Source: a virus
Direction: 5' to 3' (one strand)
IMG/VR virus record: IMGVR_UViG_3300042197_002762
Location: 62,001 to 126,000 of that record
Length of the DNA stretch: 64,000 nt
Part shown: in pieces, positions 3,192 through 63,480 of the stretch
How positions within the stretch are numbered: position 1 is the first letter of the stretch
How the letters are laid out: each line of letters opens with the position of its first letter
Made by a program: the position numbers and the translations under genes
The notes under the pieces: model-generated
What the model saw: only the letters and a program-made list of their open reading frames with translations
Databases searched by the model: none
Told to the model about the DNA's origin: nothing

Positions 3192-6100
3192 ATGGCTGCT
3201 ATTACATTAGATATTGGTGGAAATACTAGGCGTTTAGACAGAGATATACAAAAGACTGTCAATAAGGTCTATAATATTAATTTAAAGACTAAGGGTGACC
3301 AACCACTTGGACGTATTACTGGACAAGTCAATGAATTTAATAAGTCGTTAGATGCTTCTAATGCTCGTGTTATTGCATTCGGTGCTAGTGCTGGTATTAT
3401 ATTTGGAGTTGAGAGAGCTTTTACTGCTTTGTTAACTTCTGTTGTAGAAGTTCAAAAATCTCTACAAGATATTAATGTTATTCTGAATGTTTCATCAAAA
3501 GAATTGCAAAAATTCGGTGGAGAATTATTCAATATTGCAAAAAATACTGGGCAAACTTTTCAAGCAGTTGCGGAAGCTGCTACAGAATTTTCTCGTCAAG
3601 GTTTGGGTTTAGAAGAAACTTTAAAAAGAACAAGTGAGGCTTTAATTCTTTCTCGTTTAAGTGGGTTGGACACCGTAAAAAGTGTTGAAGCTCTTACTGC
3701 TGCCGTAAACTCATTTGCAAGTCAAGCTGTTAGTGCCACAGAAGTCGTTAATAAGTTTGCGACCGTTGATGCTGCTTTTGCTGTTAGTTCCGCAGATCTT
3801 GCTGATGCCGTTGCGCGTGTAGGTAGTAGCGCGGCACAATCTGGGGTTTCATTAAACGAACTTATTGCGATTGTCACATCAGCACAGCAAACAACTGCTC
3901 GTGGTGGTGCGGTTATTGGTAACTCATTTAAAACAATTTTCACAAGATTACAAAGAACTAAAGTAGTAAGCTTATTAGAAAGTCTTGGAGTGGAAACGGT
4001 TGGAGCTGGAGGCCAAGTTAAGTCAACAATTCAATTATTACAAGACTTAGGCACTGTATATGATACCTTGGGAGCGCAACAACAAGCATATGTAGCTGAA
4101 CAGGTCGGTGGTGTTTTCCAGATTAACATTTTAAAAGCTGCTTTAGCTGACTTAGGTAAAGAATATTCTATTTATAATAATGCTCTTAATGTTTCCGCTA
4201 GCGCTACGGATCAAGCAGTTAGAAGAAATGAAGAATTAAATAAAACTTATGCTGCACAATTAAATGCCCTTCAAGAAAATGCAAGACAATTAGCAGCAGT
4301 TGGTGGTGAAAGATTATTTGGGCCATCCATTGATAGACTTGTTGGTGGAACAAATCAATTGTTATCTGGATTTAATGAAAGTGACGCTCAGGGGTTTGGC
4401 GTTACCCTTGGTCGGGGTATATTAGATGGTTTAGGTCAATTTATTGCTGGACCAGGTCTTGTGTTAATTGGAGGCGTTCTTCTTAAATTATTTAAAGATT
4501 TAGCCAATTTTGCTACTGGTAGCGTCAAACAACTTTTAGGATTAAATACTGCTTCTGCTCAACAACGTGATTTACAAGCAAGTATATCTCAAATTTTATC
4601 AAAAAATCCCCAATTAATAGATCTCGCCCTACAAGGGCAAAAAGGATTAAATACTGTTGCAAATCAATTGCTCACAAGTTTACAACAGCAAACCGTTGAA
4701 TTACAAAAACAAGCTGCTTTAGCTTCTCAACTTTCTAAAGCTTTTATTGGTGCAGGAGTTCGTATTAGTGGCGGAATTCCAGTCGCACCGACTCCAGGAA
4801 GACCTGGAAAAGCTGCTGGTTATATTCCTAATTTTGCTTCGCCTCAAAATAAAATAGCAGAAACTATTGGGGCTTATCAGGCTGGTTACGAACCAGGAAG
4901 AATTTTTAATAAAAGACTGTACGATGGACAGGGAGGTTCGTTTTTAGCGACAGTAAATAGTGCGGAATCTTTTGATACAGTTGTTGGCCCTAATGGGAAC
5001 AAGGGCACATTTGTTACGCCACCAAATGGTTTTGCCGCAAAAGGTTTTGTACCAAATTTTGCAAAATCAATTAAGACAGACGATTCATCAAAGATATTTG
5101 GCGCTGGACGTGTTTTTGAAAATGCGGTAGGATTAGCAGCTGGTCTTCAAAAAGAATATTTTGAAGATAATTTTATATTAGATTATGAACCAAATGTCTG
5201 GGCTGGAAAACAAGATATTAAAAAGATTTTAGGTATTAATCAGCGTACTAATTACGGAGATGCAAAATTAAGCGCTCAGGGTAACAATTTAACAAGTTAT
5301 CTTTCAAAAGTAATTCGATATGATAGTGGATTACGTGGAGTTCAAAAAGTAGGTAATATTAAAGATTTTAATCAAAAATTTGGCTTAAGAAAAAAAATTG
5401 ATATTAGTAAACGTGGCCCTAATAATATTAATTTATCACAACCGGGTGGTGGAGCTGTTATTATACCTGGAAATAAAAAAGGTGATGGATCAAAAGATCG
5501 TACAGTAAATATTAAAGCACGTTTAAGTGAATTAAAAAAAGTAAATAGTTCCATTGCAAATGTTTTTGCGAATCCAAATAATAAATATGGCATAGACCCA
5601 AAAAGTAAATCAGACCCCATCTTTTCTTTAAAAAATGTTTTGATTGATACTACAGAGGTATTAAGAAGTGGTACTTTTGGGGCACAAGGAAAAGAAGAAA
5701 GAGAAAGAAAAGCTAGAAATATTGCTTCTAGATTTACGTCAAAAAGTTTTGCTTCTGGTTTCATCCCAAATTTTGCACAAACACCAACACAATCTAATAA
5801 AGTAGTAGAACTCGGTGATACTACAACTAATCCACTTTTTAGAGGTAAGGTTTCATCTTTAATTTATCCACAGGTTTCAGAAAACAAGTCAAAAGCCCAA
5901 GGTGAAACAACATACTTAGGCAAAAAATATAGAGGGCTAGTTTCGATAGCTGGTATTAATAAAAAAGCCCTTAAAGGTGAGATACCTGATTTAGAAGCAA
6001 ATTTAGATCAGCTTTTACTCCGTGAAGCGAATGAATTTGGCCGCGCAATTGGTGGTACAGAATTTTTACAATCAGCATCAGAGCTTCCAAATATTGGCGC

Positions 6101-9100
6101 TGCTAAAGGTGCCGTTGGTGTGTCTTTTGAAGGTGGATTATTAACATTACTTAAAAGAGATGTTCAGAAAAGTGCTCAAAATGCTCGCATTGATTTTACA
6201 CAAGATCGAATAAACTCTAAATTTAAATCTCTATTTCATGGTGCTCCTGGAACTTATGAAGCAAAATATAGCCCTTCTTTAACTGGCGAAGTTTTGCAAA
6301 AAATGTTAAGAGGGGCTGGGGTTGGTGAAGTAAAGCGAGTAAAAAGTGGTCCTGGAGCAGGAGCTTCGATGAAACAGAGAGAAGCGGTTTTAGCTAGCAT
6401 TAATAAAGATGTAGCGGAAGGTAGAATTACTCAACCAAGAAGAGGAAATGCTCTTGAGGCAGAAGTAAGAAGAAGATTGCCTCTTATGTTCCCAGGTTCG
6501 GTAAAAGGCGCTGCCGCTGGTTATATTCCAAATTTTGCAGCACCACTCGTAAGAGCAGTAGACGACAAAGAATTACGAATGATGTTATCTAAATTTGGCA
6601 AAGGATTTTCTTTCCAAGGTAAATCTTCTGAACAGTCCGCCTTAGAGTTTTTTGGCGGATCTGGAACTTATATGTGGGATGCTCTTTCAAGACCAGGCGA
6701 ACAAATGAGCGACAGACAAGCTTATAAACAAAATATTGGTCGCGCAAAAAATTGGTCCACAGCTAGAAAACAAAGTTCTTGGCTGGTAAGATATAATAGA
6801 AGTAAATTAAAAGATTCCGAGCTACTTCCAGATATGGAAACTGGTGGCGCTTCTGTTTACGGATTACCTTTAAGTAAAGATCAAATTGTTTGGCCTATTA
6901 AGCAAGCTAATGGGGCTGGTAGAATTTTTGAAAAAGATATTCCAGCATTTTTAAGTGGCCAAGTAAATGATGCAATAAAACGTGAAAGAGAAGCTGGTAT
7001 TCCTAAAAATAAAATTTATTTGGCGCAAGAAAAAGCTCTTACTAAAACAAATCCTATGGGTCTTGGAGTATTTAATAAATTACAAGAGCCAAATGCCGCT
7101 ACTAGAAAAACAGCTATGCGTAGCAAGGGTTTTGCGAGTGGTTATATTCCCAATTTTGCTATTGAAGATCCGGATATGCAAGCTGCTGATTTGGGTTCAT
7201 CTATTGGAGCAGTTGTTGCGCAATTAGGATTTTTAGCTTTTGGCTTACAAGGGGCTGGAGAGCAATACAAACAATCGTTAGCAGAGTTAACAAAATCAAA
7301 TGTTAATACTGCAAAAATTAATTCCAAAAATCTTAGAGAAAGTACTTCAAGAAGACTTCTTGTAGGTAATACTGCTGCTGCGCAAGGTGGGGCCAGAATA
7401 CGACCGGATGGGTCTCGTGGTCGTGATTTTTCAAACTATACTGGGGGTAAAACGGGCAAAGAATTTGGTGATTTGAGAAGAGCGTCGAGAAGCCCACTAT
7501 CACAACAAAGAAGAGATGAGGCGGCTAGAGAACTAAGAGCAGCTAGAGCAGCAGAAAGAACAGCCGCAAGAGGAACTGGTGGTCAAAAATTTGCAGCAGC
7601 AGGTAAGGCTGGTGGATTTGGTTTGGCTTTAGCTGGCCCGATTTTAGGTGAAACAATTAAAAATGCATTTGGACAAGAAACTCCTGGCGCAAGACAGGCC
7701 GGAACTGTTGCGGGAGCAGCTGGCGAAATTGCAGGTTTTGCTGGCACAGGAGCTATATTTGGACCTGTTGGTGCGGCAGTTGGCACTGTAGTTGGCTCTT
7801 TACTGACAATACCAAAAATTGTGGGGGCATTCGCTTCCGACTTCCCAGAATTATCTAATGCGGCTAAAAAAGCTGGAGAAGAATTAACGAAATTTAGCGA
7901 TTCTGGAGCGAAATTATTAACATCATTTGAAACTTTACAAAAAGGATTGGAAGATCCTGGAACTTCACAAGAAGTTATAAATAAAGCATCGGAAGAATAT
8001 GCTAAAATTTTGTCTGGACTTTCCGCAGAAGATCAAAAACGTTTATCTGCGGCTGCAAAAACGGGAAAATTAGAAACTGAATATGCGAAAATTTTAGCAG
8101 AAAAAACTGCTGAATTACAATCTAGAGAAGCTGCTGCTAGCTTAGGTCAAGCGACTGGAGATGTAGAATCAAGGAATTTTATGCGAAATGCCGCGAGCTA
8201 TCTTAATTATTCTCCTATAGTGGGTGGAGCTAGCGCTATTTCACAATCTCTTGGTGGTCCAGGCTTACAAGATTATATAGATTATTATTTACCAAGTTTA
8301 ACTGGAGTGGGTACCGAATCTGATAAAACAAATCAAGCTGTTTTTGCACAATCATTAACGCAAGGTAAAAGTGGCGGAGATGCTCTAAAAGCTTTAGAAA
8401 AAGCTGGGGGTACTGGTGTTGTAAAACAACTAAATCAAATACAAACTGGAGACGTTGGCGCTTTAGAAGCATTACTTAATAAAGTAATTCCAGAGCAAGA
8501 GGGTAAAGCTGATATTGTCGCACAATTTATTGCACAAGCAAATAATAATGCCCAAGATTTTCAAAATGTTGTTGGTAGTCTTGGCCAAAGTTTCTTAAAA
8601 ACAATGGAAACTGCAAAAGGTGCTAAAACGGCTGCTGATGAAATGCTTGCAGCTCAAGAAGCAGAAGCTAAAAAGAAAAAAACGGCAGTAGAAGCTACCA
8701 ATAAAATTATAGAAAATTTAGAAAGAAATATAAGGGTTGCGCAATTTGCAGCAGAATCAGAAAGAGCACTCGCTCGTTCTAGAGAAAAATTCGCTAGACA
8801 AGAATTATTTGCAGATCGTTTTACTAGAAAAACGGAAACAGCTGGGGCAATTGTTGGGACAGACGCCCCATTAGCACAAGCTTTTGGGTTAAGAGAAGAA
8901 ATTGCTACTATTGCTCAATCACAAATAGAAAGTATTGAAAATATAAAATTTAGTTTTGTAGATACAATTAATTCTTCTATTAATGATGCATTTAAAGATG
9001 CAACAGGCGCCACCATTTCAGGGGCAAGGCAGGATGGAACATCTAAAGATGTAACAAAAACAAATGATCAATTATCTTCACAAGCTTTTCAACAAACTCG

Positions 9101-10742
9101 CGCATTTAAAGAAGTCCAATCTGTTTTAAATCAATATTTAAAAAGTTCTGGAACTGTCAATACAGAGGCTTTATTAGCCCAGATTGATCAAAAACTAGCT
9201 GACGCAAAAGTTAATGACGCAACAAGATTAAAAATAGAACAACAATTAAAAGAAGAATCTTCTAAAGTAAATGGCGAGATTAAACTTTTAAAACAAGAGT
9301 CCGTACAAAATTTTAAAAAATTAGCTAAGGAACAGTTACAAAGAATTCTTATTCAAAAAATTGGTCAAGCCCAGGCTTTTGGGGGTGGGATAGATGAATT
9401 TTTGAATCCACGCGAGGCGGGGGAGGGTGCTTTTGATAAGGTTACAGAATCAGTAAAAGCATTCGATCAATTCGAAGGCCAACAAGCAGATTTTCGTTTT
9501 GATTACCGGCAGGGTACAAACGATTTTAGATATCAATACGGGGCAGCCCAAAGGGCTAGACAAGAAATGGCTCCAGAATTTGGTAGAGAGGCGTTAAAGC
9601 TTATTGGAAATTTACAAAATATTACAGGATACACACCAGACCCACAAGGCAAAGCTTTTCAAGCTGGAGTTACTGGCTTAGAAGAATTTTTAAGGAGAAG
9701 GGTCACTGAGCTACAAACTCTTGCTAAAGATCCAGGTACTGGCCAATTAGAGAGAGATGAAATTAATGCAGCTTTATCAACTATTCCCGAACTAGGCGGT
9801 CTTAAAACAATAGCAACATTACAAGTAGCTAGACAAACTGGCGCATTAGATGAAACACAATACGAAGCAATTACTAAAAAATATCAGGATCCAGTTTTAC
9901 AAGCTTTAAGAGAACGTGCAATTCAAGTAGGCGGAACTGAAGGGGCAGCATTATTAGAAGAAGTAAAAAAATTAGCTAAAGACCGAATAACAACAGAAGG
10001 CGCAGAACCTACTGTCGAAGCAATAAATACAACAAATAGTATTCTTAATGATATTTTAACATCTCCAGGAATTAATGGTCAAAGATCTAATGATGTTTCA
10101 GATGTTGGGGCCATTGCTGATAAATTATTAAAAAATGCACAATCGCCTACTATCAACCCACAACTAATAGGACAAGCAACTCCCGTTACGCCTACAACAA
10201 CTACAGCGGCTGCACCAACGACTCCACCTATTAGTCAAATTCCAGCAATTATTGATTTTACACCAGTAGTTTCAGCTGTTGCGATAGGTAACTCATTCTT
10301 ATCAAGTATCGCAGATTCAATATTAGATATTAAACAAATTCAAGACATCGATAAAGATTATGGTAATTATGATACCAGATCAAGAGAAAAAGAGGCTCTC
10401 AGCAAAATACAAAGTAAAAATGAGAATTTCACAAGTAAAATTCCCGCAACAACTGGAACCGTAGCAGGTATCGGGGGTGAAGTATTAGTTCAAAGTATTA
10501 ATACATTAGTAGAAGCTTTAAGACAGCAACCAGCCCAAAATAATTCTGCACAAAGCCAAGGCGTGACACAACCAAATATTCAAACAACAACAAATGCCCC
10601 AGTTACTTTAGTTGTAAATGCTGAAAGCTCCACAGATATTGCTACTGCTGTTGGTGAAGCTGTTCAAAATGCAATCCCGACAATTATTGACAAAGTAAAA
10701 GTAGCGCTTGGTCAAAAGGTTCCACCAAAGGCAGGGGGTTAA
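3192..10742 (+). CDS. Tail tape measure protein with inserted cargo-like domains
   Basis: At 2516 residues this is the largest gene in the window. Residues about 60-400 match the TP901-type tape measure core: alternating hydrophobic helices with Q/A/S-rich segments, and motifs such as AVAEAATEFSRQG and TTARGGAVIGNSFKTIF. From about 540 to 1325 five copies of a short motif, A-x-G-[YF]-[IV]-P-N-F-A, delimit separate folded segments. Two segments have PD-(D/E)XK nuclease-like residues: E643, D664, D690-A-K692, and E980, D1001, E1023-A-K1025. Residues about 1475-1550 form a glycine/alanine-rich hydrophobic stretch that could insert in a membrane. The remainder is coiled coil with a Pro/Thr-rich linker near 2320 and a Q/N-rich C-terminus. 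It sets tail length; at about 0.15 nm per residue the helical part implies several hundred nm. Nuclease folds are inferred from spacing only. Confidence 0.93.
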   Translation: MAAITLDIGGNTRRLDRDIQKTVNKVYNINLKTKGDQPLGRITGQVNEFNKSLDASNARVIAFGASAGIIFGVERAFTALLTSVVEVQKSLQDINVILNVSSKELQKFGGELFNIAKNTGQTFQAVAEAATEFSRQGLGLEETLKRTSEALILSRLSGLDTVKSVEALTAAVNSFASQAVSATEVVNKFATVDAAFAVSSADLADAVARVGSSAAQSGVSLNELIAIVTSAQQTTARGGAVIGNSFKTIFTRLQRTKVVSLLESLGVETVGAGGQVKSTIQLLQDLGTVYDTLGAQQQAYVAEQVGGVFQINILKAALADLGKEYSIYNNALNVSASATDQAVRRNEELNKTYAAQLNALQENARQLAAVGGERLFGPSIDRLVGGTNQLLSGFNESDAQGFGVTLGRGILDGLGQFIAGPGLVLIGGVLLKLFKDLANFATGSVKQLLGLNTASAQQRDLQASISQILSKNPQLIDLALQGQKGLNTVANQLLTSLQQQTVELQKQAALASQLSKAFIGAGVRISGGIPVAPTPGRPGKAAGYIPNFASPQNKIAETIGAYQAGYEPGRIFNKRLYDGQGGSFLATVNSAESFDTVVGPNGNKGTFVTPPNGFAAKGFVPNFAKSIKTDDSSKIFGAGRVFENAVGLAAGLQKEYFEDNFILDYEPNVWAGKQDIKKILGINQRTNYGDAKLSAQGNNLTSYLSKVIRYDSGLRGVQKVGNIKDFNQKFGLRKKIDISKRGPNNINLSQPGGGAVIIPGNKKGDGSKDRTVNIKARLSELKKVNSSIANVFANPNNKYGIDPKSKSDPIFSLKNVLIDTTEVLRSGTFGAQGKEERERKARNIASRFTSKSFASGFIPNFAQTPTQSNKVVELGDTTTNPLFRGKVSSLIYPQVSENKSKAQGETTYLGKKYRGLVSIAGINKKALKGEIPDLEANLDQLLLREANEFGRAIGGTEFLQSASELPNIGAAKGAVGVSFEGGLLTLLKRDVQKSAQNARIDFTQDRINSKFKSLFHGAPGTYEAKYSPSLTGEVLQKMLRGAGVGEVKRVKSGPGAGASMKQREAVLASINKDVAEGRITQPRRGNALEAEVRRRLPLMFPGSVKGAAAGYIPNFAAPLVRAVDDKELRMMLSKFGKGFSFQGKSSEQSALEFFGGSGTYMWDALSRPGEQMSDRQAYKQNIGRAKNWSTARKQSSWLVRYNRSKLKDSELLPDMETGGASVYGLPLSKDQIVWPIKQANGAGRIFEKDIPAFLSGQVNDAIKREREAGIPKNKIYLAQEKALTKTNPMGLGVFNKLQEPNAATRKTAMRSKGFASGYIPNFAIEDPDMQAADLGSSIGAVVAQLGFLAFGLQGAGEQYKQSLAELTKSNVNTAKINSKNLRESTSRRLLVGNTAAAQGGARIRPDGSRGRDFSNYTGGKTGKEFGDLRRASRSPLSQQRRDEAARELRAARAAERTAARGTGGQKFAAAGKAGGFGLALAGPILGETIKNAFGQETPGARQAGTVAGAAGEIAGFAGTGAIFGPVGAAVGTVVGSLLTIPKIVGAFASDFPELSNAAKKAGEELTKFSDSGAKLLTSFETLQKGLEDPGTSQEVINKASEEYAKILSGLSAEDQKRLSAAAKTGKLETEYAKILAEKTAELQSREAAASLGQATGDVESRNFMRNAASYLNYSPIVGGASAISQSLGGPGLQDYIDYYLPSLTGVGTESDKTNQAVFAQSLTQGKSGGDALKALEKAGGTGVVKQLNQIQTGDVGALEALLNKVIPEQEGKADIVAQFIAQANNNAQDFQNVVGSLGQSFLKTMETAKGAKTAADEMLAAQEAEAKKKKTAVEATNKIIENLERNIRVAQFAAESERALARSREKFARQELFADRFTRKTETAGAIVGTDAPLAQAFGLREEIATIAQSQIESIENIKFSFVDTINSSINDAFKDATGATISGARQDGTSKDVTKTNDQLSSQAFQQTRAFKEVQSVLNQYLKSSGTVNTEALLAQIDQKLADAKVNDATRLKIEQQLKEESSKVNGEIKLLKQESVQNFKKLAKEQLQRILIQKIGQAQAFGGGIDEFLNPREAGEGAFDKVTESVKAFDQFEGQQADFRFDYRQGTNDFRYQYGAAQRARQEMAPEFGREALKLIGNLQNITGYTPDPQGKAFQAGVTGLEEFLRRRVTELQTLAKDPGTGQLERDEINAALSTIPELGGLKTIATLQVARQTGALDETQYEAITKKYQDPVLQALRERAIQVGGTEGAALLEEVKKLAKDRITTEGAEPTVEAINTTNSILNDILTSPGINGQRSNDVSDVGAIADKLLKNAQSPTINPQLIGQATPVTPTTTTAAAPTTPPISQIPAIIDFTPVVSAVAIGNSFLSSIADSILDIKQIQDIDKDYGNYDTRSREKEALSKIQSKNENFTSKIPATTGTVAGIGGEVLVQSINTLVEALRQQPAQNNSAQSQGVTQPNIQTTTNAPVTLVVNAESSTDIATAVGEAVQNAIPTIIDKVKVALGQKVPPKAGG
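4812..7160 (+). repeat. Five A-x-G-[YF]-[IV]-P-N-F-A repeats inside the tape measure
   Basis: The copies are at residues 541-549 (4812-4838), 616-624 (5037-5063), 854-862 (5751-5777), 1108-1116 (6513-6539) and 1315-1323 (7134-7160). The core P-N-F-A is invariant. The spacings (67, 229, 245 and 198 residues between copies) are the size of single domains, so the motif behaves like a module boundary or processing/docking signal. Confidence 0.9.
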
Positions 10743-10747: not shown

Positions 10748-12385
10748 ATGGCAAATTTATTATTTGATAATGTTGAAGTATTAGGTTACGATCATCAAAA
10801 TAATTTTTTTGGTGAAAGATCTTTATTTTATTCATCTTTAAGAACAATATCAATCCGTGGTTATATACTAGATTTGGTAAATAGTAGCGGTGTAAAAGGC
10901 GTCTTTAATAATGCGAAAGACATTATTAAATTAACTCAAGATTTCCAAGAAATAATAATTAATGGCGAAAACTTCGGCGTAGGTAAAGTAAAATCTTTTT
11001 CTGTTGATTCTGGAAATTGGGTTCGTTACACTCAATACGAAGCAACGATTGAAGTTTTATTAGAAGTCCCAATTGCAGATTTGGATTCCAAAGAATTTAC
11101 TGGAATAAATGTCGGCAATAAACAATTAAATTTAATTAAAAGTTTTTCGGAAAGTTTTTCTTTAAACTTTGACACGCAAAATAAAGTTTTAGGTGGAGAA
11201 CATTCTATTGATATAGAATATGATGCAGATAATAAAAACATTGATATTATAAGATTTGCCCAATCTTTAGCTACTGAATTATTAAAAACAATACCATCTA
11301 ATTCTAATATTGCAGAAGGCAATTATATTACTAGAAATAATTACAAAGTTTTAAATAGTGAAAACTATAATACTGTTACTGGCAAATGTGGTTTTAGAAG
11401 AACTTTTTCATATAGTACTTTAAATGCTAATAAGAATTACTCTTTTATTAGAACACACTCCGTTGAAATAAATGAAGATGGTATTGCGACTGCCAGCGAA
11501 AACTGTTCAATAAAAGCAGAATTTGATGTACCATCTTTATACGAAAATGCTTTAATTGGTTATAACGAACAAATCGCTGGGGTTTATTCTAGATGCAATA
11601 CGGTATTCCAAAACTATAAAACAAAATTTAATATTATCACAAATTTAAACCAGCAGTTTATTAGCAAATCTGTTCAAGTTAATAAATTCAATGGCACTAT
11701 TAATTTTACTATAAATTTTGATAACGATCCTAAAAAAATTAATTCTTCTTATATTTGGGAATATGTAAGTAATTTAGACAGAAGCGAAAATGGAGTATGG
11801 ACTACTTCCGAAAATGGTTCTGTTAAAGGAAATGGTAAAGTTGGTTCTATTGATAAATACAATAATGCTAATACTGGGTGGAATACAGCTAAGGGCGGTA
11901 TATTTGGTAGAGTAACATCTTTTTATAACAATGAAGCTACAAATAAAATTGGGGGAACTTTGAAAGAAATTAGTAAAACAATTAATCGTAATAAATACGA
12001 AGGTTTTATTAATTATAATTATACATATACAGACGATCCAACAATTAAAGATGGTTCTGATTCAGGTATTAAAAAAGTGGATATTGAAAAAACGGACACG
12101 GGACTTTTGCCAATCACAAAAGATTTTATTATACCAAATAGAACTTTTGCGTTAAATCAAAATAGAGATTTAAAACAACAGGGTACATATACTGTAAAAG
12201 TAAGTTTAGAAATTGGATGTACTTCTACTAATGTTCTTAATAGTTGGAATTATTTTACAAAAGCACAACAATATGCTGGGGGTAAACCAAATTTAGGTAA
12301 TGATGAATACTTAGAAGCAATTAATTATTCATCCAACGAAACAGATAGAACAATATCATACGAGGCAACTTATAAATATTCATAA
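10748..12385 (+). CDS. Distal tail/baseplate protein (paralogue of next gene)
   Basis: A 545-residue beta-rich, asparagine-rich protein right after the tape measure, the usual place of distal tail or hub proteins. Its first 120 residues (a G-x-x-F-Y start, then a domain ending near YEATIEVLLEVP) resemble the start of the next gene product, and both continue with F-S-x-x-F/F-D segments. The middle contains repeated segments of the form RTFSYSTLNANK and NCSIKAEFDVPS that look like tandem beta-sandwich modules. No enzymatic motif. It begins five bases after the tape measure stop and ends in a TAATATG junction. Confidence 0.5.
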   Translation: MANLLFDNVEVLGYDHQNNFFGERSLFYSSLRTISIRGYILDLVNSSGVKGVFNNAKDIIKLTQDFQEIIINGENFGVGKVKSFSVDSGNWVRYTQYEATIEVLLEVPIADLDSKEFTGINVGNKQLNLIKSFSESFSLNFDTQNKVLGGEHSIDIEYDADNKNIDIIRFAQSLATELLKTIPSNSNIAEGNYITRNNYKVLNSENYNTVTGKCGFRRTFSYSTLNANKNYSFIRTHSVEINEDGIATASENCSIKAEFDVPSLYENALIGYNEQIAGVYSRCNTVFQNYKTKFNIITNLNQQFISKSVQVNKFNGTINFTINFDNDPKKINSSYIWEYVSNLDRSENGVWTTSENGSVKGNGKVGSIDKYNNANTGWNTAKGGIFGRVTSFYNNEATNKIGGTLKEISKTINRNKYEGFINYNYTYTDDPTIKDGSDSGIKKVDIEKTDTGLLPITKDFIIPNRTFALNQNRDLKQQGTYTVKVSLEIGCTSTNVLNSWNYFTKAQQYAGGKPNLGNDEYLEAINYSSNETDRTISYEATYKYS

Positions 12386-12386
12386 T

Positions 12387-13994
12387 ATGAGTAATCAAGT
12401 AAAAATTCTATATAATGGTAAGGATGCTTTTAGTGGTATTTCAACAGTCCCATTTGTTTCGATTTCAAATGATTATATTGATTTTGGTACAAAATGGAAT
12501 CAAGTAACTAACATTACCTTAGAGGGGCAGTTAACTGGTAAATTTTTAGGACAAGCTTCTTATGGTTTACTTGCGGATGCGGCTAGAAAATTACATGAAA
12601 ATTTCAATCAAAACTATAAAACTTTATTAATTACAGAAAATGGTTCTGGATTATATACAGGACTTAATACAATTATTAATTCTATTAATATCGAACAATC
12701 TTCTTGGTATGGATTATTACCCTATTCAATTGATTTAACCGTATATGATTCTGGACTTTTTAAAGATTATTATGGAGTTGTGGAACCAGAAGAAACCTTT
12801 TCTTTTGACGAGGAAGACGGGGATATACTAAATCTTGTTCATTCAATTTCGGCAAAAGGTATTGTAGCTAAAAATAAAAATGCAATTGAAAATGCAAAAG
12901 AATGGGTTTTATCAAAAACAGGTAATTTTACCGGTATTTCGCCTATATTAATAAAAAATTTCAGAGCGGCGAGTAACAAACCATTTTTACTATATTCGAC
13001 ACAAGAGGTGGTAGATAGATTTAACGGTACGTATTCTTGGGAAGGAACATATAAAAAATCTACAAATTTAGAAAGTCCTAATAATGCTATTTTGAATTAT
13101 ACTGTAGATTTAAATTCTGGAATTGAAGACGGGATTGTTACGGCAAACATAAATGGCGGTTTAGAAGGTAATAATATCGAAGTTTTAAGAACTGAATACA
13201 ATAATTTAGATTTATATAACATATGCAGTGAAATTTGTAATCGCGTTTTTAAAGAGCCAATTTCTAACAGGCCAATATCACAATCAGTCGAAGAAACAGC
13301 AGAAGAAAACAGATTAGAGTTTAGTTCTACATATAATAATGATTACTCAGATCAATTAGTAAATAATTATACGGTTGATATTAATGAAGACTCTTTAAAG
13401 TGTATAAGAACCGTTACATTAAATTCTACAATATCATGTAAGTATGGTGATCTAGCCACAAAATGGCAAAAAGTAAATGATTTTTATAAAACTAAATTTT
13501 TTCCATATTCTCTAGCTTCAGAAGAATTTTTTTCAGAATTTGGTGCTGCGAATTTAAATCCCGTCCCATTAACAGAATCAATTAGTTTTGATAGTTTTAA
13601 TGCCCAAATTACTTATAACGCACAATATTCAGATAAGCCCCTAATTTTTAGCGCTGATATTTTAAATGTAAGTTCTAATGTTACATTTAATCCATCAATA
13701 TTTATTCATGTTCCTAATACATCAGCTTTTACAGCTAGAGAACACAATATTCAAAATTTAAGGTGTGCTAATAGATCAAAAGTTCAAATTTCTGTAACAG
13801 CTACGGCTAGAATGAACAAAAATATATCATCGGCGGAAAGCGCAGCTATTAGTGAAATTAATAGAATTAAATCAAACTATACAAATGGTCGTGCAAATCT
13901 ATTATTGGAAGACAGAAGCTTTTCAAGAAATAATGATATTAAGACTGTAACAATAAATGAAACATGGTCTTTTGATGGATCCCTAATCTCATAA
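12387..13994 (+). CDS. Distal tail/baseplate protein (paralogue of previous gene)
   Basis: A 535-residue protein with the same build as the previous product: an N-terminal domain in which a W/Y-rich strand leads to a DLTVYDSG segment, then an FSFDEEDGDI segment aligning in position with the FSLNFDTQNK segment of the neighbour, then repeated beta modules. This suggests an old tandem duplication. Translation is probably coupled through the TAATATG junction at both ends. Role inferred: distal tail ring or fibre attachment. Confidence 0.5.
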   Translation: MSNQVKILYNGKDAFSGISTVPFVSISNDYIDFGTKWNQVTNITLEGQLTGKFLGQASYGLLADAARKLHENFNQNYKTLLITENGSGLYTGLNTIINSINIEQSSWYGLLPYSIDLTVYDSGLFKDYYGVVEPEETFSFDEEDGDILNLVHSISAKGIVAKNKNAIENAKEWVLSKTGNFTGISPILIKNFRAASNKPFLLYSTQEVVDRFNGTYSWEGTYKKSTNLESPNNAILNYTVDLNSGIEDGIVTANINGGLEGNNIEVLRTEYNNLDLYNICSEICNRVFKEPISNRPISQSVEETAEENRLEFSSTYNNDYSDQLVNNYTVDINEDSLKCIRTVTLNSTISCKYGDLATKWQKVNDFYKTKFFPYSLASEEFFSEFGAANLNPVPLTESISFDSFNAQITYNAQYSDKPLIFSADILNVSSNVTFNPSIFIHVPNTSAFTAREHNIQNLRCANRSKVQISVTATARMNKNISSAESAAISEINRIKSNYTNGRANLLLEDRSFSRNNDIKTVTINETWSFDGSLIS

Positions 13995-13995
13995 T

Positions 13996-16900
13996 ATGGT
14001 AAATATAATCTCAGGTATGAATTTTTTGGTAGAAGCCTTGAATATCGATATTCAAGATATTCCTGCTGCATTTTCATTTAGAGCAAATCCTACATTTAAT
14101 ACTAATATCATATATCCTGACCCTTGGGCATCTGGGTCATCTTCTGGTATCTTAAATACAGTTGGCGGAAATGGTTTTTTTACTTATTCTGGGACAGGTA
14201 ATTTTAATGGAAACAATTATTTTAATTTAAATAAAAATTATTCTTTTAATAATTCTACAATATTTTTATCATATGAAAAGTTAAGATCTGGTAATGAAAT
14301 CTTATTATCTTCAATAACAGGAAATTCTTTTAATAACTCTTCTGGTTTTAATCTAGGGATTAATGACGCAAATAAATTATATTTAAAATATTGGAATAAT
14401 GTTGAAGGGCCATTTACTTTTACTTATAGTGGAATTTTATCAGATAAAAATATTATTGTAATTAATAGAAGTGATTCAATTATTACATTAGGACATTTTA
14501 ATAATAATACTTTTGAATTTTCATCACAAGAATTTGAAATTTTTCAAAATAATTTTATTAATAGTTCTAATTTATTTATTGGTGGTACGCCAAACCGTCC
14601 AAATTGGGATTTAAATAATCCATCTAATTTTAGTGGTTATATGGACAGATTGTATATATTTAATAATATACCATTTGTTTATGCTAATGTTTTATCTCGT
14701 GGACTGTTTTCTGAGCCAACTGGTTTCGCGGGGGAATTAGAAGAATACTGTTACACAACAGGATTTTTATCTGGATCTGGTTTTTCTTATTCTACAGTTA
14801 CTGGAGTTTTAGTTTCGGGTTTTCAAAGTGGAATTACTGGAATTACTGGCTATCAAGAAGTTATTTCAGGCAGTTCTTTTACTGGTATTACTGGGTATAG
14901 TGGAAAATATTTAGGTTCATATATTGATAATTGTGGAAATAATATTGACATAATAGAACAAGTTCCGCTTTCTGGTATTATATCAAATGAAATTACAATA
15001 ACGGTTCCTTTAACTGGAATTACTTTTGTAACTGGTTTTGTTGATGTCCCACTTATTGGTGTCGAAACTGGTATCCAAAATGTTTTTGTAACAGGACTTA
15101 TTTGTGATTCGTATTTCAATAATATTGGAGATGTTTTATATGCATATGATGAACCTTATTTATCATCTTTATCTTATAAAGAAATAAGCTTATTGACCAC
15201 TGTAAACCCAAATAAAATTGAGCCGACTGGTAATGATATTATTGAGATCTATGCCGAAAAATATCAACCTAAAACTTTAGAGTATAATAAAAATTTAGCT
15301 TACGATACTTTAAATGAAAATTATTTTTACATTGACCGAGAATTTAAACCTAATGAAGTTCTTATGTTCGGTAATGGTCAAGCTCTTATTGATAATGGAT
15401 ATGAACTTATTCCAAGCGGATATGAAATAATAAGAAGTCCTAATTTTGACTATTTTATTACAGGGACAACTGTAGAAACAAATAAATTTTTTGGAGCAAA
15501 AGATTATTTATTTTATGATTTTTTTAGTGGTAGATCTAGTTTTTACCCAAGATTGAGTAATATTTTTGGGGAAGTTTTTTATCAATCTAGTAATAGTGGT
15601 GTAGATGCTTTTGTTTTTAAAAATGGTCAAAAATTAATTAGTGGTATTGATTATTCTGTAGATAGATTAAATTCAGCGCAATTAATATATGGTTCTGGCA
15701 ATCGTGCAGAATTAGGTTGGAATTTAAATTTAAATGAAGATGGTGATTTGCTAATGGTATCTGATCGTGGCTCCCGTACTATTGCTCAAAATCTTTATAT
15801 ATATAATAAAGACTCTAATTCACAATGGAATTCATCTCAGACATTAACAGGTTTAATGAAGATTGTATGGACTGGGCCGAACTCAGTTATAAGTAGAGAT
15901 TTTGGATCCTATTTAAGTAAAAATGGTAAGGTATTGGTTGTTTTAAATTCTAAGGAAATAGATATTTTTACCGGTTCTAAAAATTCTAACTGGAGTTTAT
16001 GTAAAAATTTTAAATATTCTGCTAATTTTCCTTTGGGTTCTGTTTTTCATACACAGTCTGTCCAAATAACAGACGTTATTACCCCACTTAACGAAGTTAC
16101 CATGAATTACGATGGATCTTTAATTTTAGTTAACGCTCCAAGATTAAGTGGATATTCAGAGAATTCAAGGATTTTAATATTAACAGGTTCTTTAGAAAAT
16201 GGAGATTGGGTTCAAACTAGTTTTTTAGATACTTCATTATTATATATCAGGCCCTATTCTTTGAGACAGCTTAATTTAAATAATGATGGCACAATTTTAG
16301 GGATCGCTGAAAGATTTAGTGCTTGGCCAGGACCATTTGTTGGGCATGTTAGGATTTTAACTGGTTTTATTAATAATTGGAATTTATGTTCAATAATTAG
16401 TGGATCTGGTATTGGGGGCTCGTTAGCCATGTCTAATGACGCAAATATTATATGTACTAGCAACCCATATAGTGGAAATAATATTTCTCAGTATGGAGCG
16501 GGTGCAATTTATATATATACAGGATCAGTTTCTAATGGTTGGAATTTGAAACAAACTATTACGGGAAGTCATGATAATCGTGGAGATGCGATTGGTCGCA
16601 AAATAAAAATTTCAAACGACGGAAATACAATTTTATTCAATGCTGGAATAAGTAATAATACTTCGCCTACAAAAAATAGAATAATAAAATATAAAGGTAA
16701 TAAAAATATGGGGTGGTTACCAGATAATATTTATTATCCAAATAATTTTCAACAAGATAGTGAATTTATAAATTACGGTCAAAATATTGAATTAAATGGT
16801 TTGGGGAATGCTTTTATGACTACTGCTCCTACAACTACTATTTATCCAAATGAGAGTGTAGGGGCTCTTTATACATACGGAGAAGGAATGAATTTGTATT

Positions 16901-17178
16901 TTTTAAATGAAGAGTTTTCTAATCAATTAAATTATTTTATGGTTAAAGAAGTCGATCATTATAACAATTACGCATTAAATTCAGGAATTTCCGGTACTTT
17001 ACCGTTTAATAAACCATTTAATCACGGATGCTCTCAAGTTTATTATAATGGCATTAAACAAAAAATTGGAAATAATTATGTGGAAAATAGTCGATATGAT
17101 CTAATTTCTGGAACTTTTAACCAACCAAGTGAATTTCAAGAAGTAATTTATAATAATACTGACGATTTTTTTGTGTAA
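13996..17178 (+). CDS. Large tail fibre/adhesin with LamG-like and propeller-like parts
   Basis: A 1060-residue protein. Residues about 20-235 look like a concanavalin/LamG-type jelly roll (FSYSGTGNF, a YMDRLYIFNN ending typical of these folds). Residues 240-370 are rich in T-G and S-G dipeptides (GITGITGY), giving a fibre-like beta region. Residues about 570-940 have repeated blades with an N-[DG]-x-G-x-x-[IL] core followed by Y-x-x-G, resembling FG-GAP/beta-propeller repeats. This is a plausible receptor-binding or carbohydrate-binding virion protein. The final GTG TAA of the gene is also the GTGTAA motif that precedes the hub gene. Confidence 0.55.
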   Translation: MVNIISGMNFLVEALNIDIQDIPAAFSFRANPTFNTNIIYPDPWASGSSSGILNTVGGNGFFTYSGTGNFNGNNYFNLNKNYSFNNSTIFLSYEKLRSGNEILLSSITGNSFNNSSGFNLGINDANKLYLKYWNNVEGPFTFTYSGILSDKNIIVINRSDSIITLGHFNNNTFEFSSQEFEIFQNNFINSSNLFIGGTPNRPNWDLNNPSNFSGYMDRLYIFNNIPFVYANVLSRGLFSEPTGFAGELEEYCYTTGFLSGSGFSYSTVTGVLVSGFQSGITGITGYQEVISGSSFTGITGYSGKYLGSYIDNCGNNIDIIEQVPLSGIISNEITITVPLTGITFVTGFVDVPLIGVETGIQNVFVTGLICDSYFNNIGDVLYAYDEPYLSSLSYKEISLLTTVNPNKIEPTGNDIIEIYAEKYQPKTLEYNKNLAYDTLNENYFYIDREFKPNEVLMFGNGQALIDNGYELIPSGYEIIRSPNFDYFITGTTVETNKFFGAKDYLFYDFFSGRSSFYPRLSNIFGEVFYQSSNSGVDAFVFKNGQKLISGIDYSVDRLNSAQLIYGSGNRAELGWNLNLNEDGDLLMVSDRGSRTIAQNLYIYNKDSNSQWNSSQTLTGLMKIVWTGPNSVISRDFGSYLSKNGKVLVVLNSKEIDIFTGSKNSNWSLCKNFKYSANFPLGSVFHTQSVQITDVITPLNEVTMNYDGSLILVNAPRLSGYSENSRILILTGSLENGDWVQTSFLDTSLLYIRPYSLRQLNLNNDGTILGIAERFSAWPGPFVGHVRILTGFINNWNLCSIISGSGIGGSLAMSNDANIICTSNPYSGNNISQYGAGAIYIYTGSVSNGWNLKQTITGSHDNRGDAIGRKIKISNDGNTILFNAGISNNTSPTKNRIIKYKGNKNMGWLPDNIYYPNNFQQDSEFINYGQNIELNGLGNAFMTTAPTTTIYPNESVGALYTYGEGMNLYFLNEEFSNQLNYFMVKEVDHYNNYALNSGISGTLPFNKPFNHGCSQVYYNGIKQKIGNNYVENSRYDLISGTFNQPSEFQEVIYNNTDDFFV
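17173..17178 (+). promoter_or_regulatory. GTGTAA motif upstream of baseplate hub gene
   Basis: The last codon and stop of the previous gene form GTGTAAATTAAAT, 29 bases before the ATG at 17208. AAAGGAAAAAGGA lies between as a strong ribosome site. Overlap with coding sequence weakens the case for this copy alone. Confidence 0.3.
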
Positions 17179-17207
17179 ATTAAATAGGAATATAAAGGAA
17201 AAAGGAT

Positions 17208-19613
17208 ATGGCAATTAAAAATGTACCAACAATTTCTGGACCAAATTATGGAGGAGTAATATATGGTCTTAATCTTAGTATAGGTTATTCAGCAGAACCA
17301 TCTAAATTAACAATTGATATTGTTAATGAAAATGGGGTTTATGCTACACCATCATTAAATTCACAAACGCAAGTAAGATTTGGAAATTTTACTTTTAATG
17401 GGACCGTATGGTCTTATACTTTAAAAGAAAGCGCCGGAGAAAAAACTTTGCAAGTTACTCTAATAGATAATAGTATTATTTTAGATAGATATTATGTTTT
17501 ATTATGGAAACGTGGATTACTTGGTCTAAACGGAACGTTACAAAATAAAAATAAAACTTTTGATTTTAGTGATGAGAGTATTTTAGTACCACAAAGAAAT
17601 AATAAATTATCTGGTTTTGGGTATACGCAATTTATTGAAAGAAGATTGGGCCGAGTGACAGTTCCTTCAAAATCTTATACATTAGGTAGTAGAAGAGTTG
17701 GAAATGTTATTTTAGTTGGGCATGAAAAATTTGCAAATTCTGTTTGTGACATCCCAGATACTTATTATACATTTAATGATTTAAGAGGTCAAATTCCAGT
17801 AAACATGTCTTCTGCCCCAAGTAATGATACTTGGAAAGCCACTCACGAAGGAACTTTAAGAGAAGTGTTAAGCAGTTGGTGTTCAGATTTAGGTTTCGAT
17901 TATTATTGGGATTTTTCTTCAAATACTCTTAGGTTTTTCGATGTATCCGTTGGTATTTCTAATGTTCCTGATATTTCTGGTCCTAATATTATTTCTAAAG
18001 AAAAATCGGTTTCCATGCAGGGAACATTTAGGCAATATGGTATTGGATATACGGCAATGCCGCGATCTGCGGTTAAAGCCTTAAGTGCTTCTAAATCTAG
18101 GGTAGTATTATATTCTTTATCTCCATATCCAATAAGTTACTTTGTAAATAAAATTGGCGCTCCACAGGCTATTAATGCAGATAAAGGTAAATGGGGTGGT
18201 AGAAGAAGTCAAGATGATTTTGTTCATGCAGCGTTCTTAGGTTTCGTTTCAAGAAGTTTGAGAGATTTATATTGTTTTCGAAATGAACACTGGGAAGCTC
18301 TTGGCTATAAAGTTGATAGTGGATTAACAACAAATAAACCAAAAATCATAAGTGCTCTTAAAAAATTTGGTTTTCAAGATATGATTTCAGATTTAGAAGC
18401 ATTTGATGCTAAGGATTTGCCTAATTATGATTTTAATTTTATTAACAGGGACCCCACTATTGCAGATAAGTGGCATGAAATAGAACAAAAACTATTACAA
18501 TATCATGGTAAATATTATAGGGCTTCAGATTCTTCTGGTTCTTTCTTTTATTGTAATTCTAATTATACAATAGAGGTTGAAATATCTGTTGACCCAGAAG
18601 GCCAAGTGCAAGAGCAAGGTAGTGAAAATTTCGCTGGCCGAAAAATCATTGATAGGGGTGGAACAATGAGTCATGATGAAACAAGCGCTCAAGAAGCCAT
18701 TGGTTATGAAAATTTAACTAATGAAATTCAAAATTGCGCTCCAATACATATTGATTTAAAAGAATCTGGTATTTTAGACTCTTTAATAACTGCAAAAATT
18801 CTTTCAGGGAGTAATTCTAAAAAAATAAATACTTTAGTTATTTTTCCAAATAGTGAAAAATTTGTAAAAAATAAAATAGGTTTTAGATCTTCAACAAGTA
18901 GGGGTTTAAATCCTCTTGAACAAACATTTTATGATCAAAAAAATGCCAATATACAATCTGGTAAAAAAAATTGTCCCCAATATGACGAAAGTTTAGAAAA
19001 AGGTTCATGCAAAGCCGCTGAAGAAATTGCTAGAGATACCGCAATTAAAAATGCCGGAGGTACAACTAACGATACAGATAACCCTGATGATTATATTAGC
19101 GGATTAATAACAAAAACAGCTAAGTCTTGTAGCATATCTTTAAAAGGTGGAACTGTAAGAATTTTCGCTCCATCAGACGGAAGTTTACAAGTTGTTTGTA
19201 GATATAATATTAATATTAATAAACTTACTACCGTTGGAACTGAACAATTTTTATGGTCAGCTGGTTCCCCTGGTGGCGCGAATGATGTCGCTGAAATTCG
19301 TATTAATAATGAAAATATTACGGATCCAGACGAAGATTCTTTTCAATCAAGAAGACCTGGAAATTTAATTAAACCAGCGGATGCTGTTTGTGCAACACCC
19401 CAGCAAGAAATTAAATATGTTTTTGCTGGTGAGCCAGAAGGCGTAGCGTTAAGTCCAACTAATGGGTTATCAAATTTAGATATTAGCTTGTCGTCAGATG
19501 GCTTTACAACAACAGCTACTTTTGCTACAAAACCGCCAAAACTATCAAAAGCCAATAATACAGTAAGATATGTCCAATCACAATTTAACCGCGCTTCTTA
19601 TAACGCTTCATAA
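17208..19613 (+). CDS. Baseplate hub / tail tip protein
   Basis: An 801-residue protein. The N-terminal 110 residues form a beta barrel-like region with alternating strands (LTIDIVNENG, LQVTLIDNS). At about 215-250 is a segment of the kind T-L-R-E-V-L-x-x-W-C-x-D-L-G-F-D-Y-Y-W-D followed by a strand with FFD, which resembles the helix-strand unit of gp27/gpD-type hub proteins. The middle holds cysteines and an asparagine-rich helical domain; the last 150 residues are beta-rich. It lies between fibre genes, as hub proteins do. No lysozyme or peptidase motif is visible. Confidence 0.55.
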   Translation: MAIKNVPTISGPNYGGVIYGLNLSIGYSAEPSKLTIDIVNENGVYATPSLNSQTQVRFGNFTFNGTVWSYTLKESAGEKTLQVTLIDNSIILDRYYVLLWKRGLLGLNGTLQNKNKTFDFSDESILVPQRNNKLSGFGYTQFIERRLGRVTVPSKSYTLGSRRVGNVILVGHEKFANSVCDIPDTYYTFNDLRGQIPVNMSSAPSNDTWKATHEGTLREVLSSWCSDLGFDYYWDFSSNTLRFFDVSVGISNVPDISGPNIISKEKSVSMQGTFRQYGIGYTAMPRSAVKALSASKSRVVLYSLSPYPISYFVNKIGAPQAINADKGKWGGRRSQDDFVHAAFLGFVSRSLRDLYCFRNEHWEALGYKVDSGLTTNKPKIISALKKFGFQDMISDLEAFDAKDLPNYDFNFINRDPTIADKWHEIEQKLLQYHGKYYRASDSSGSFFYCNSNYTIEVEISVDPEGQVQEQGSENFAGRKIIDRGGTMSHDETSAQEAIGYENLTNEIQNCAPIHIDLKESGILDSLITAKILSGSNSKKINTLVIFPNSEKFVKNKIGFRSSTSRGLNPLEQTFYDQKNANIQSGKKNCPQYDESLEKGSCKAAEEIARDTAIKNAGGTTNDTDNPDDYISGLITKTAKSCSISLKGGTVRIFAPSDGSLQVVCRYNININKLTTVGTEQFLWSAGSPGGANDVAEIRINNENITDPDEDSFQSRRPGNLIKPADAVCATPQQEIKYVFAGEPEGVALSPTNGLSNLDISLSSDGFTTTATFATKPPKLSKANNTVRYVQSQFNRASYNAS

Positions 19614-19615
19614 GT

Positions 19616-22600
19616 ATGGTTATTACATCTGGGATACAGTATAGAAATTTTGCAGCACAAAATGAATTTTCTTTTTCTTTTAGTGCTATAAATTCTATTT
19701 CTTCTGGTATCTCAGAAATTGGTTTTTCTGGGGGTGAAAATGTATTACCAATTTTTTCTTTTAAGAGCGGAAATATTTTTGATTTTAACAATAAATATGT
19801 ATGGTCTTACAATCCAAGAGAGGTAATTAATTTTTCTGGTAATATTGGTTCTGGTTACATTAATTACTTTATAAATAATAATCCAATATGTTTATTTTCT
19901 CCTAAATCTAATAATTTATATTATGATTATTTTTATTTAAAAACAACTGGCTCTGAAATTGATTATGATTTTTATATTCAAGGGGACCGACCAAATTATA
20001 ATGTTATCTTTCCTAAAAGTGGTTTTTTTGGGCAGCGACTAACGGGATTTATAAAAAATTTTGAAACTATACCAGAGAAGTCTTTTAAAATTTTTAGTGG
20101 CACTTTATTTAATGAGAATACAGATTATGAAATACAAAATTTGCCGCTATTTGTAATTTCTGGTAACCAGTCTGGACAAATAATTTTAAAACCGGAATTT
20201 GACGACAATATTGTAATTTCGGAGGTAACACCATCTCAAGCAACCCTATTTTTTAATACAAATTTTGGTAATGTTCAAAATACTATATCTTTTGACTTAA
20301 TTCCTGGTCCTATTTATTTTGTTGAATTATTTACAGGATATACTGGAGGAACTGGATTAATTGACAATTTTACTTTTGGTCAATATTATAATTATGAATT
20401 AAGAACAATATCTCCAGACCCGTTAGAAGTAACGGTTTTAATAAAAAATATTTCTGGGCATACTGGACAATTAATATCTGGAGAATTTGCTGCTAGTGGT
20501 TTTGCCAGCGGTGATATATCTGGTTTTGTTTATGGGTTTGATTATATTACTGGCGTTTTGACGGGAACTGGAATTTCTCTGTTTGAAACTGATTATTATG
20601 GACAATTTCCAACAGGGAAAATTTCAAGTAATTATAGAGAATTACAATATGCTACTGGAACACTAAATTATACATATAGGCTTCCGTTATTAGGAGCGAG
20701 CGGAACTGGTAATTCACCAGAAGGAACCGTAATTACAGCCACCGGATTTTTAAATTCGCCATTAACTGGTTTTATATATGGATATGGTATTTTTTCCGAA
20801 CAAAGAAATATCAGTTTGACGGGTTTTTATTTTGATAGCATAAATATAAAAACAGGATTACAAAGTTTAACTGGATCTGGATTTTATACTGGAACTTATT
20901 TTTTAGACTATAGAAAATTGTTATGGCGGTCTAACAATATTACGGGTACAAATTTTACTGGATCTGGAAATAAAATTGTAGATATCACGGGATTTTCTTT
21001 TGGGTCAATGTTATCCAATAATTCTGGTTCAATTAGTTTTGGCAATATAATAGCTAACCAGCAAACTGGTACGGTATTAAAAGAAATTATTAATCAAAAT
21101 CCAGGGTTATTTATTAATAGTGGTAGTGGATTTTCTACAGAAAATAATTCACTTTCAGAAAGAGCTTTTTTAGGTGATCAATATTTTTACTTAACTGGAC
21201 AAACTGGAGATATTGGAATCTTTTTTAGATTTTACGATCCATCATCAAAAGGTAAAATAACTTATTATTCTTTTGAGCTAGACTTTAATACTTTAAAATA
21301 TCCATACAATTTTGATTTACAATTATCAGAAAATAGAAATGGACCATGGACGACAATTGATTCCCGTACCGGAGATGGTTTGTTTTTAAGAGATGAGCCA
21401 TTAACTTTTTATGAATACCCAAGAGAAATTATTCTAAAATGTAATAATCATAACCAAACAATTAATAATAATGCGACTTATAACTATGCGCGTATTGAAA
21501 TTAAATCTGGTGGTTTTTGGCCACATGCTTTTACTGGCCAAAGATCTAGTAGTGGTATTGGTTTTAGAAAAATTGAACTGTATACTGGCACAAATGTTAA
21601 TATCAATAATTTAGAATCATTTTCTACTTATTCAGTAGCACCGAATTTAACTGGATATAATAAACCTTCTGGCGGAATTTTGAATAATAATTCTTTTTCT
21701 GGGCAAGTAATATATAGTGATGATTCTGTATCTTATCCAGCTTGGTATGCTTTCAATGAGAATAAAAATATTTATCCATACGCTGAAATATCCGGAGATA
21801 TTAATAATGATATATACTTAGGTTATTCTGTAGCTAATAGATTTTTTGATTTTACTGGGTTTAACATTGAATTTGAAGCGGGTTTTATTCCAACAGGTGT
21901 TGTTCTTCAGTTTTCTAGAGATGGAAATAATTATAGCACTATCTATCAAAATTATAATAATACTGGAAATCTGAATTTAAATTTTGATATTATTACCGGA
22001 TGTAAGGATTTAAAATTTACATTTAATAAAAATTTATCTTCAAGCTCAAGCTCTTCATTTAATTGCGTAACTCCGCCTAATTATATTGATACTAATAATA
22101 TTTGTTATCAAAATGCTATTAATAGCGATCCATTTTGCTGTGAGGTTAGTTGGGATGCGGAATGTGACAATGAATATTTTACTTGTGCCGGATCGTCTTC
22201 TAGTAGTAGTAGTAGTAGTAGCAGTTCTAGTTTATCATCTTTCTTATTTAATTCTAATTTATGGATAGACCCAGACGGTGGCAATATCTTTTTAGAACCA
22301 AATCAAAATTCGTCGTCAAGTTCTACTACAAATAGTTCGTCGAGCAGTTCGTCGTCGAGTAGTTCCTCGTCGAGTAGTTCCTCGTCGAGCAGTTCCTCGT
22401 CGAGCAGTTCCTCGTCGAGCAGTTCGTCGTCGAGTAACTCTTCGCCAAGTAGTTCGTCGTCAAGCAGTTCGTCGTCGAGCAGTTCGTCGTCGAGCAGTTC
22501 GTCGTCGAGCAGTTCGTCGTCGAGCAGTTCGTCGTCGAGCAGTTCGTCGTCGAGCAGTTCGTCGTCGAGTAGTTCCTCGTCGAGCAGTTCCTCGTCGAGC

Positions 22601-22912: not shown

Positions 22913-22948
22913 AATGAATTTAATAATTTATATAAAATTACTTTTTAA

Positions 22949-22954
22949 GTGTAA
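22949..22954 (+). promoter_or_regulatory. GTGTAA motif upstream of adhesin gene
   Basis: GTGTAACATATATAGG is in a true 65-base intergenic gap, 23 bases before the ATG at 22978, followed by AGGAAAAAGG as ribosome site. Confidence 0.4.
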
Positions 22955-22977
22955 CATATATAGGAAAAAGGTTAAAT

Positions 22978-26025: not shown

Positions 26026-26027
26026 TC

Positions 26028-56111: not shown

Positions 56112-56399
56112 ATGATAGTAACATGGACAGTCGAAGGCGTTGATTGGGCAAAAAAAATCAAAGCTCATATTGATACAGACCCTTCTGAGATTGCCACTCG
56201 TGGTGTCGAAATGGCTTTAGAATCATTAAAAACAGAAGAAGATTCTATTCAATTTGGCGCAATCTTAAGAGTCTTTCATAATAAAATGGAAGATGAAGGA
56301 GAACATTGGATTATGTATGCTCCTAAAATTTTAGCCAATGCTGGTTATTATAAAGATGCAGAAGAGCTTCGAGAAGCTGCGGAAAAAGAATATTTGTGA
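56112..56399 (+). CDS. Hypothetical protein coupled to the VWA protein
   Basis: A 95-residue helical protein with a W-T-V-E-G-V-D-W start. No family is recognised. Its stop overlaps the next start (GTGA), so it is made with the HExxH/VWA protein and may be its small partner. Confidence 0.6.
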   Translation: MIVTWTVEGVDWAKKIKAHIDTDPSEIATRGVEMALESLKTEEDSIQFGAILRVFHNKMEDEGEHWIMYAPKILANAGYYKDAEELREAAEKEYL

Positions 56400-63466: not shown

Positions 63467-63474
63467 ATAAATTA

Positions 63475-63480
63475 TTACAC
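63475..63480 (-). promoter_or_regulatory. GTGTAA motif upstream of protease gene
   Basis: On the minus strand GTGTAATAATTTAT is eight bases before the GTG start at 63466, and just after the stop of the preceding gene. Confidence 0.4.

Follow-up and report, generated by a model that had tools for sequence, protein, structure and literature searches.

Does the tape measure protein (TMP) of a phage carry, between its constant parts, enzymes which enter the host together with the DNA? The question is raised by a stretch of 64,000 nucleotides, here called the window, corresponding to positions 62,001 to 126,000 of the IMG/VR virus record IMGVR_UViG_3300042197_002762. The TMP encoded in the window features five copies of a short motif, [A/S]-x-G-[YF]-[IV]-P-N-F-A, which delimit domain-sized blocks. 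From the comparison with related TMPs, it is reasonably likely that the protein carries an array of interchangeable effector modules, punctuated by the motif and delivered with the phage DNA. Motif-bearing open reading frames (ORFs) were gathered by scanning IMG/VR for GYIPNFA and GFIPNFA, and all counts given below are among the matches listed.

Anatomy of the array

The TMP and the components of its array are located in the window as follows.

3192-10742, + strand: tape measure protein, 2516 residues (Pfam PhageMin_Tail, PHROG TMP families)
3192-4811, + strand: conserved TMP N-terminal region, constant part of the family (residues 1-540)
4812-4838, + strand: motif 1, AAGYIPNFA (residues 541-549)
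4839-5036, + strand: constant mini-domain 1 (residues 550-615), about 70 copies among related TMPs by profile search
5037-5063, + strand: motif 2, AKGFVPNFA (residues 616-624)
5064-5750, + strand: module A, nuclease-like, with E643, D664, D690-A-K692 and K706 (residues 625-853)
5751-5777, + strand: motif 3, ASGFIPNFA (residues 854-862)
5778-6512, + strand: module B, nuclease-like, with E980, D1001, E1023-A-K1025 and K1037 (residues 863-1107)
6513-6539, + strand: motif 4, AAGYIPNFA (residues 1108-1116)
6540-6947, + strand: module C, orphan (residues 1117-1252)
6948-7133, + strand: constant mini-domain 2, or linker, consensus ..AiaREkaAGvp..NPmGLgvtN.. (residues 1253-1314)
7134-7160, + strand: motif 5, ASGYIPNFA (residues 1315-1323)

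Both domain content and homology identify the protein as a TMP. PhageMin_Tail spans residues 116-307 (Pfam, E 1.6e-23), PHROG TMP families are matched with E values down to 2.4e-51, and the N-terminal region is ~25% identical to that of SPbeta/YomI-type TMPs. Mean column identity over residues 1-540 is 58% across 30 diverse relatives.

The five motifs that the first-pass annotation, made from the sequence of the window, had placed within residues 541-1323 are all present, PNFA starting at residues 546, 621, 859, 1113 and 1320. The motif is confined to the array, no other copy being found in the six frames of the window. A chance origin was rejected, five copies being observed in the TMP against ~1.5e-5 expected from composition. 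In arrays of the family, the N-terminal TMP region is followed by motif 1, a mini-domain of ~50-65 residues, motif 2, the variable modules, as a rule with a motif at the end of each, mini-domain 2, the last motif, and the C-terminal TMP region. Modules A, B and C make up the variable part in the window, and none of them matches a known Pfam or PHROG domain. The block boundaries drawn in the first-pass annotation hold, except that the last block (residues 1117-1314) is made up by two components, module C running straight into the conserved linker of ~60 residues with no intervening motif. The linker has at least 164 matches in at least 154 related ORFs by profile search, and is 72% identical in the window and in the related TMP L001. 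The profile of module C matched module C alone, no relative being found among the related ORFs.

Exchange of modules at the motif

The window TMP and L001 are 93% identical at the N-terminus and 73% at the C-terminus, yet modules A-C cannot be aligned by BLASTP. In other pairs with N-termini 86-96% identical, the arrays vary from those aligned in full to those that cannot be aligned, or are one module apart. L141 and L209 (N-terminal identity 95.8%) differ by a single unit of 288 residues, inserted exactly between two ASGFIPNFA copies. In the whole set, 254 modules of at least 100 residues each fall into 91 clusters. Judged from these comparisons, the modules are hypervariable, and a cassette exchange having the motif as joint adds, removes or replaces them. 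A shared joint tolerating the gain, loss and exchange of modules would let the cargo change fast, the TMP frame staying the same.

The hypothesis that the array alone, and not the ruler part, varies in length did not hold as a general rule, the median difference being 32 residues in the array and 94 outside. The window and L002 do fit it, with a difference of 357 residues in the array and 25 outside.

A motif which is short, near-invariant and found at nearly every module boundary could also be a protease site, the TMP being a polyprotein cut at GYIPNFA during assembly or after entry. The enzyme named as possible processor in the first-pass annotation is encoded in the window.

62558-63490, - strand: Peptidase_S8 subtilase (2.7e-48); of 24 related records, only those of L007 and L009 have one

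The presence of this gene in the genome, and the processing supposed for polyvalent proteins in other phages (PMC5512222), are in line with cleavage. Yet many of the 24 related records, of which just two have a Peptidase_S8 gene, exceed 100 kb, and the role suggested for the subtilase is not supported, although a host or other protease could replace it. Moreover, no motif divides module C from the constant linker in the window. Processing at the motif is on the whole unlikely and, because the subtilase is so rare in related records, the motif is more readily regarded as a plain joint, or as a docking element, than as a cleavage site.

Distribution of the motif

PNFA repeats, expected from the first-pass annotation to be worth searching for in other phages, were found in at least 213 IMG/VR ORFs, at least 154 of which have the same TMP N-terminal region. 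Of the remaining 59, 52 are truncated at the border of the retrieved locus, and the last 7 are different ORFs, mostly of small size. The distance from the start of the N-terminal TMP region to the first motif is nearly constant, at 498-593 residues (25-90% quantile range). At least 461 strict motifs were counted, and the distance between them peaks at 70-80 residues, corresponding to mini-domains, and at 200-300 residues, corresponding to modules. By this survey, the motif appears to be TMP-specific in almost all cases, far above chance, and to be a trait of one family.

Thirteen IMG/VR relatives of the TMP N-terminal region were compared. Ten carry 4-8 motifs each, one is cut off, and two, L012 and L013, have none. 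The latter (43% identity at the N-terminal region) are distant from the rest, and may represent a state preceding the array. The TMPs of L006, L009, L183 and L034 have additional motifs far into their C-terminal part, which suggests that certain phages have a second site for cargo.

No close cultured relative was found, since tblastn searches with the array and two TMPs against 50,697 phage records returned ~25% N-terminal matches only. Motif-bearing TMPs of this type reside in contigs of metagenome-assembled genomes assigned to Flavobacteriales, Halobacteriovorax and Verrucomicrobiales. These assignments are hints to the hosts, or may be explained by binning. Two of the contigs binned as Halobacteriovorax (L229:9851-21467 and L231:1-11401) encode members of the same TMP family in frames of ~3800 residues, with seven motifs, mostly of the GLIPNFA/GMIPNFA variant.

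Modules A and B

Modules A and B had been compared to PD-(D/E)XK nucleases in the first-pass annotation on account of the residues E643, D664 and D690-A-K692 in the former, and E980, D1001 and E1023-A-K1025 in the latter. These residues are in place, with an E to D distance of 21 residues in both modules, and follow the order E-(21)-D-(22 to 26)-(D/E)xK, with hydrophobic neighbours; conserved E, D and (D/E)xK residues in this order are a trait by which PD-(D/E)XK nucleases are recognized. In the module B family, E/D980, D1001, [D/E]1023 and K1025 were found in 54 of 54 rows and K1037 is K in 47, though the 53 relatives are only 13-52% identical to module B. In the 11-row alignment of the module A family, G639, F642, D664, K692 and K706 are invariant, and the E/D and D/E positions nearly so. 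Comparison by hhalign, in which loci common to both were left out on one side, shows the two families to be homologous (96.8%, E 2.4e-10). Neither module was found as a free-standing copy in the fetched loci, all copies residing in motif-bearing ORFs. Of 74 array representatives, 15 have the E..D..(D/E)xK signature, where shuffled sequences give 4.3 +/- 2.0; it is also present in 6% of TMP C-terminal pieces, the latter being a rough comparison as piece lengths differ.

The fold is where the comparison to PD-(D/E)XK enzymes was not borne out, and several results weigh against it. Module B was modelled with confidence by AlphaFold (AF2, pLDDT 86.5) as four strands followed by helices. E980 is helical, while D1001 falls on a short strand and E1023-K1025 on a strand; the model of module A is poor. 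Foldseek searches with the module B model found no fold match, PD-(D/E)XK folds included (best PDB E 0.35, best BFVD E 0.2). The strand order is not that of the textbook core, as four strands precede the helix carrying E, and a short helix separates D from the ExK strand. No Pfam nuclease was matched by either module, nor did their profiles give meaningful matches to sequences of solved structures. Comparison of the profiles with Mrr, YraN and NERD, run with SNase and response-regulator controls, gave no signal; the comparison has no power, as known members also miss each other (Mrr-YraN 15%, Mrr-NERD 0.3%).

The two modules might accordingly belong to another metal-dependent enzyme fold, in which E, D and (D/E)xK are employed by coincidence, and both the missing fold and profile matches and the unusual strand order are what such a fold would give. 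This is possible, but rather doubtful in view of the order and spacing of the residues, and of the more canonical hhExK forms noticed by eye, as leads, in modules of L097, L067, L109 and L123. Since module B has no Foldseek match and module A is poorly modelled, the nuclease reading is based on the conserved residues and the companion modules, not on fold. A and B are not filed as PD-(D/E)XK members, yet nuclease activity is considered quite likely for them.

Enzyme domains in related arrays

The window array features only two homologous nuclease-like modules and one orphan. In the census of sister TMPs, several disparate enzyme domains per polypeptide were found, a trait by which polyvalent proteins are recognized. 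Pfam domains above cut-off are SNase (1.9e-9), GNAT (1.7e-4) and the cytidylyltransferase-related HIGH_NTase1_ass (6e-8); a GHKL-ATPase-like HATPase (5e-5) falls just under it. PHROG families named peptidase, endolysin, cytidyltransferase and endonuclease were also matched. The SNase module, found in L109, aligns with staphylococcal thermonuclease in the PDB (1.8e-4), the active-site elements DGDT, R..VD.PE and Y.R lining up. From profile match and active-site residues, this SNase domain of a sister TMP is judged genuine. GHKL-like and cytidylyltransferase-like modules gave no PDB sequence match. Further leads, recognized by eye, are ART-like modules in L197 and L158, kinase-like in L172 and L148, HAD-like in L135, L176 and L126, and one of HExxH type in L176.

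The module with the GHKL-ATPase-like start is 799 residues long. It resides in the TMP array of L159 (L159:5330-7726), and is common to L147.

Most modules match no Pfam family, which also counts against an array of effectors. Together with the orphan status of module C, this is what would be observed if recombination at the motif merely brought domains into a permissive TMP site, a large share of these being decayed and functionless. Such inert insertions would hardly keep catalytic-type residues invariant over the 53 highly diverged relatives of module B, the active-site elements of the SNase module, and intact frames across 2000-3800 residues, and are considered very improbable.

Proposed delivery of the modules

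TMPs help carry DNA across the envelope (PMC7824862, PMC10240207). Hydrophobic segments found on both sides of the array are listed below.

4428-4514, + strand: hydrophobic segment upstream of the array (residues 413-441; hydropathy)
7191-7247, + strand: hydrophobic segment directly downstream of the array (residues 1334-1352; hydropathy)
7728-7823, + strand: glycine-zipper hydrophobic segment (residues 1513-1544, GPVGAAVGTVVGSLL; GxxxGxxxG and hydropathy)

The glycine-zipper segment is a candidate for the part of the TMP that forms a membrane channel. The segments flanking the array would suit a TMP forming a membrane passage, an idea backed by the analogy with Tde1 and with TMP zippers (PMC10240207).

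The first-pass annotation had supposed the blocks to be effectors delivered at infection, which fits the finding of other nuclease and modifying-enzyme domains at the same place in related TMPs. In the mechanism proposed, folded modules bounded by the motif would occupy a single, fixed position, flanked by the constant N-terminal and the membrane-zipper-bearing C-terminal TMP regions. The TMP would exit the tail before the DNA does and enter the envelope, the modules being carried along to the periplasm or cytoplasm of the host, to act there. A and B, as metal-dependent nuclease-like modules of the E...D...(D/E)xK type, would most likely cut host, competitor or other non-self nucleic acid. Folded domains of 200 residues have no obvious fit inside the tail tube, a further point against the proposal, and therefore either unfolding or a position at the tip must be assumed.

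Modules might otherwise stay in or near the envelope and aid entry, by degrading wall or surface or by handling the receptor. TMPs with lytic domains are known (PMC10194240), and the PHROG peptidase (1e-18) and endolysin (5e-14) matches, found in one array representative each, are of the kind expected. The SNase, GNAT, cytidylyltransferase-related and GHKL-like modules, in contrast, have cytoplasmic substrates (nucleic acid, coenzyme A, nucleotide). An action restricted to the envelope seems improbable and, because the substrates of SNase, GNAT, nucleotidyltransferase and GHKL-type domains are cytoplasmic, delivery of the modules to the cytoplasm is favoured from their domain assignments.

Genome context

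The virus record, 178 kb in length, encodes upstream TerL (1.8e-22), a weakly matched portal (0.003) and an endolysin, along with ribonucleotide reductase, DnaB-type helicase, primase, UvsX-like recombinase and DNA polymerase. From this gene content, the source of the window is identified as a tailed phage. Other genes of the window are the following.

10748-27083, + strand: six large ORFs in a run after the TMP (351-1098 residues), nearly all with no PHROG match, presumably tail and baseplate genes
31404-33323, - strand: glycosyltransferase-like gene (PHROG match)
56396-57634, + strand: HNH endonuclease-like gene (PHROG match)

Relation to known systems

No paper describing the PNFA motif or TMP effector arrays was found in the open-access literature. 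The closest concept is that of the polyvalent proteins of phages and conjugative elements (Iyer et al. 2017, PMC5512222), which are very large, combine many disparate enzyme domains, are encoded in the context of virion genes and are thought to be injected with the DNA. Polyvalent proteins are associated with head, portal, MuF or virion RNA polymerase, whereas the modules described here are set in a TMP frame and separated by a fixed short joint motif; the main text of that paper mentions neither tape measure proteins nor PNFA. The array is best read as the TMP counterpart of polyvalent injected proteins. TMPs with lytic domains (SPbeta-type YomI, enterococcal) share enzyme domains inside the TMP and, for SPbeta/YomI, the N-terminal homology already mentioned, but their domains are wall-degrading, while the cargo of the arrays is of nuclease or modification type, multiple and exchanged fast. 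As in polymorphic toxin systems (Zhang et al. 2012, PMC3482391), a constant carrier is combined with rapidly exchanged effector-type domains; in the TMPs, unlike in those systems, several consecutive modules reside mid-protein, are marked by a joint motif, and have a virus tail protein as carrier. The type VI secretion system effector Tde1 (PMC10240207) couples a nuclease to a glycine-zipper membrane segment resembling TMP segments. Tde1 is however a bacterial secreted toxin, and its zipper is compared to that of the window TMP by analogy.

With about even chances, a widespread family of uncultured phages uses its TMP as a general platform for effector delivery, a recombining, motif-punctuated array equipping every phage with an individual set of enzymes for injection (nucleases, acetyltransferases, and kinase-, ART- and GHKL-like proteins), as an analogue of a polymorphic effector system. 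If so, phages would deliver enzymes built into the tail ruler, too, beyond delivery from the head. The motif would provide a simple search handle, any stretch between two GYIPNFA copies being a candidate injected effector, and the ~90 module clusters, most of which have no known family, would probably be rich in functions for host takeover, anti-defence and exclusion of competitors. Whether TMPs, with folded domains, reach the cytoplasm would become a testable question.

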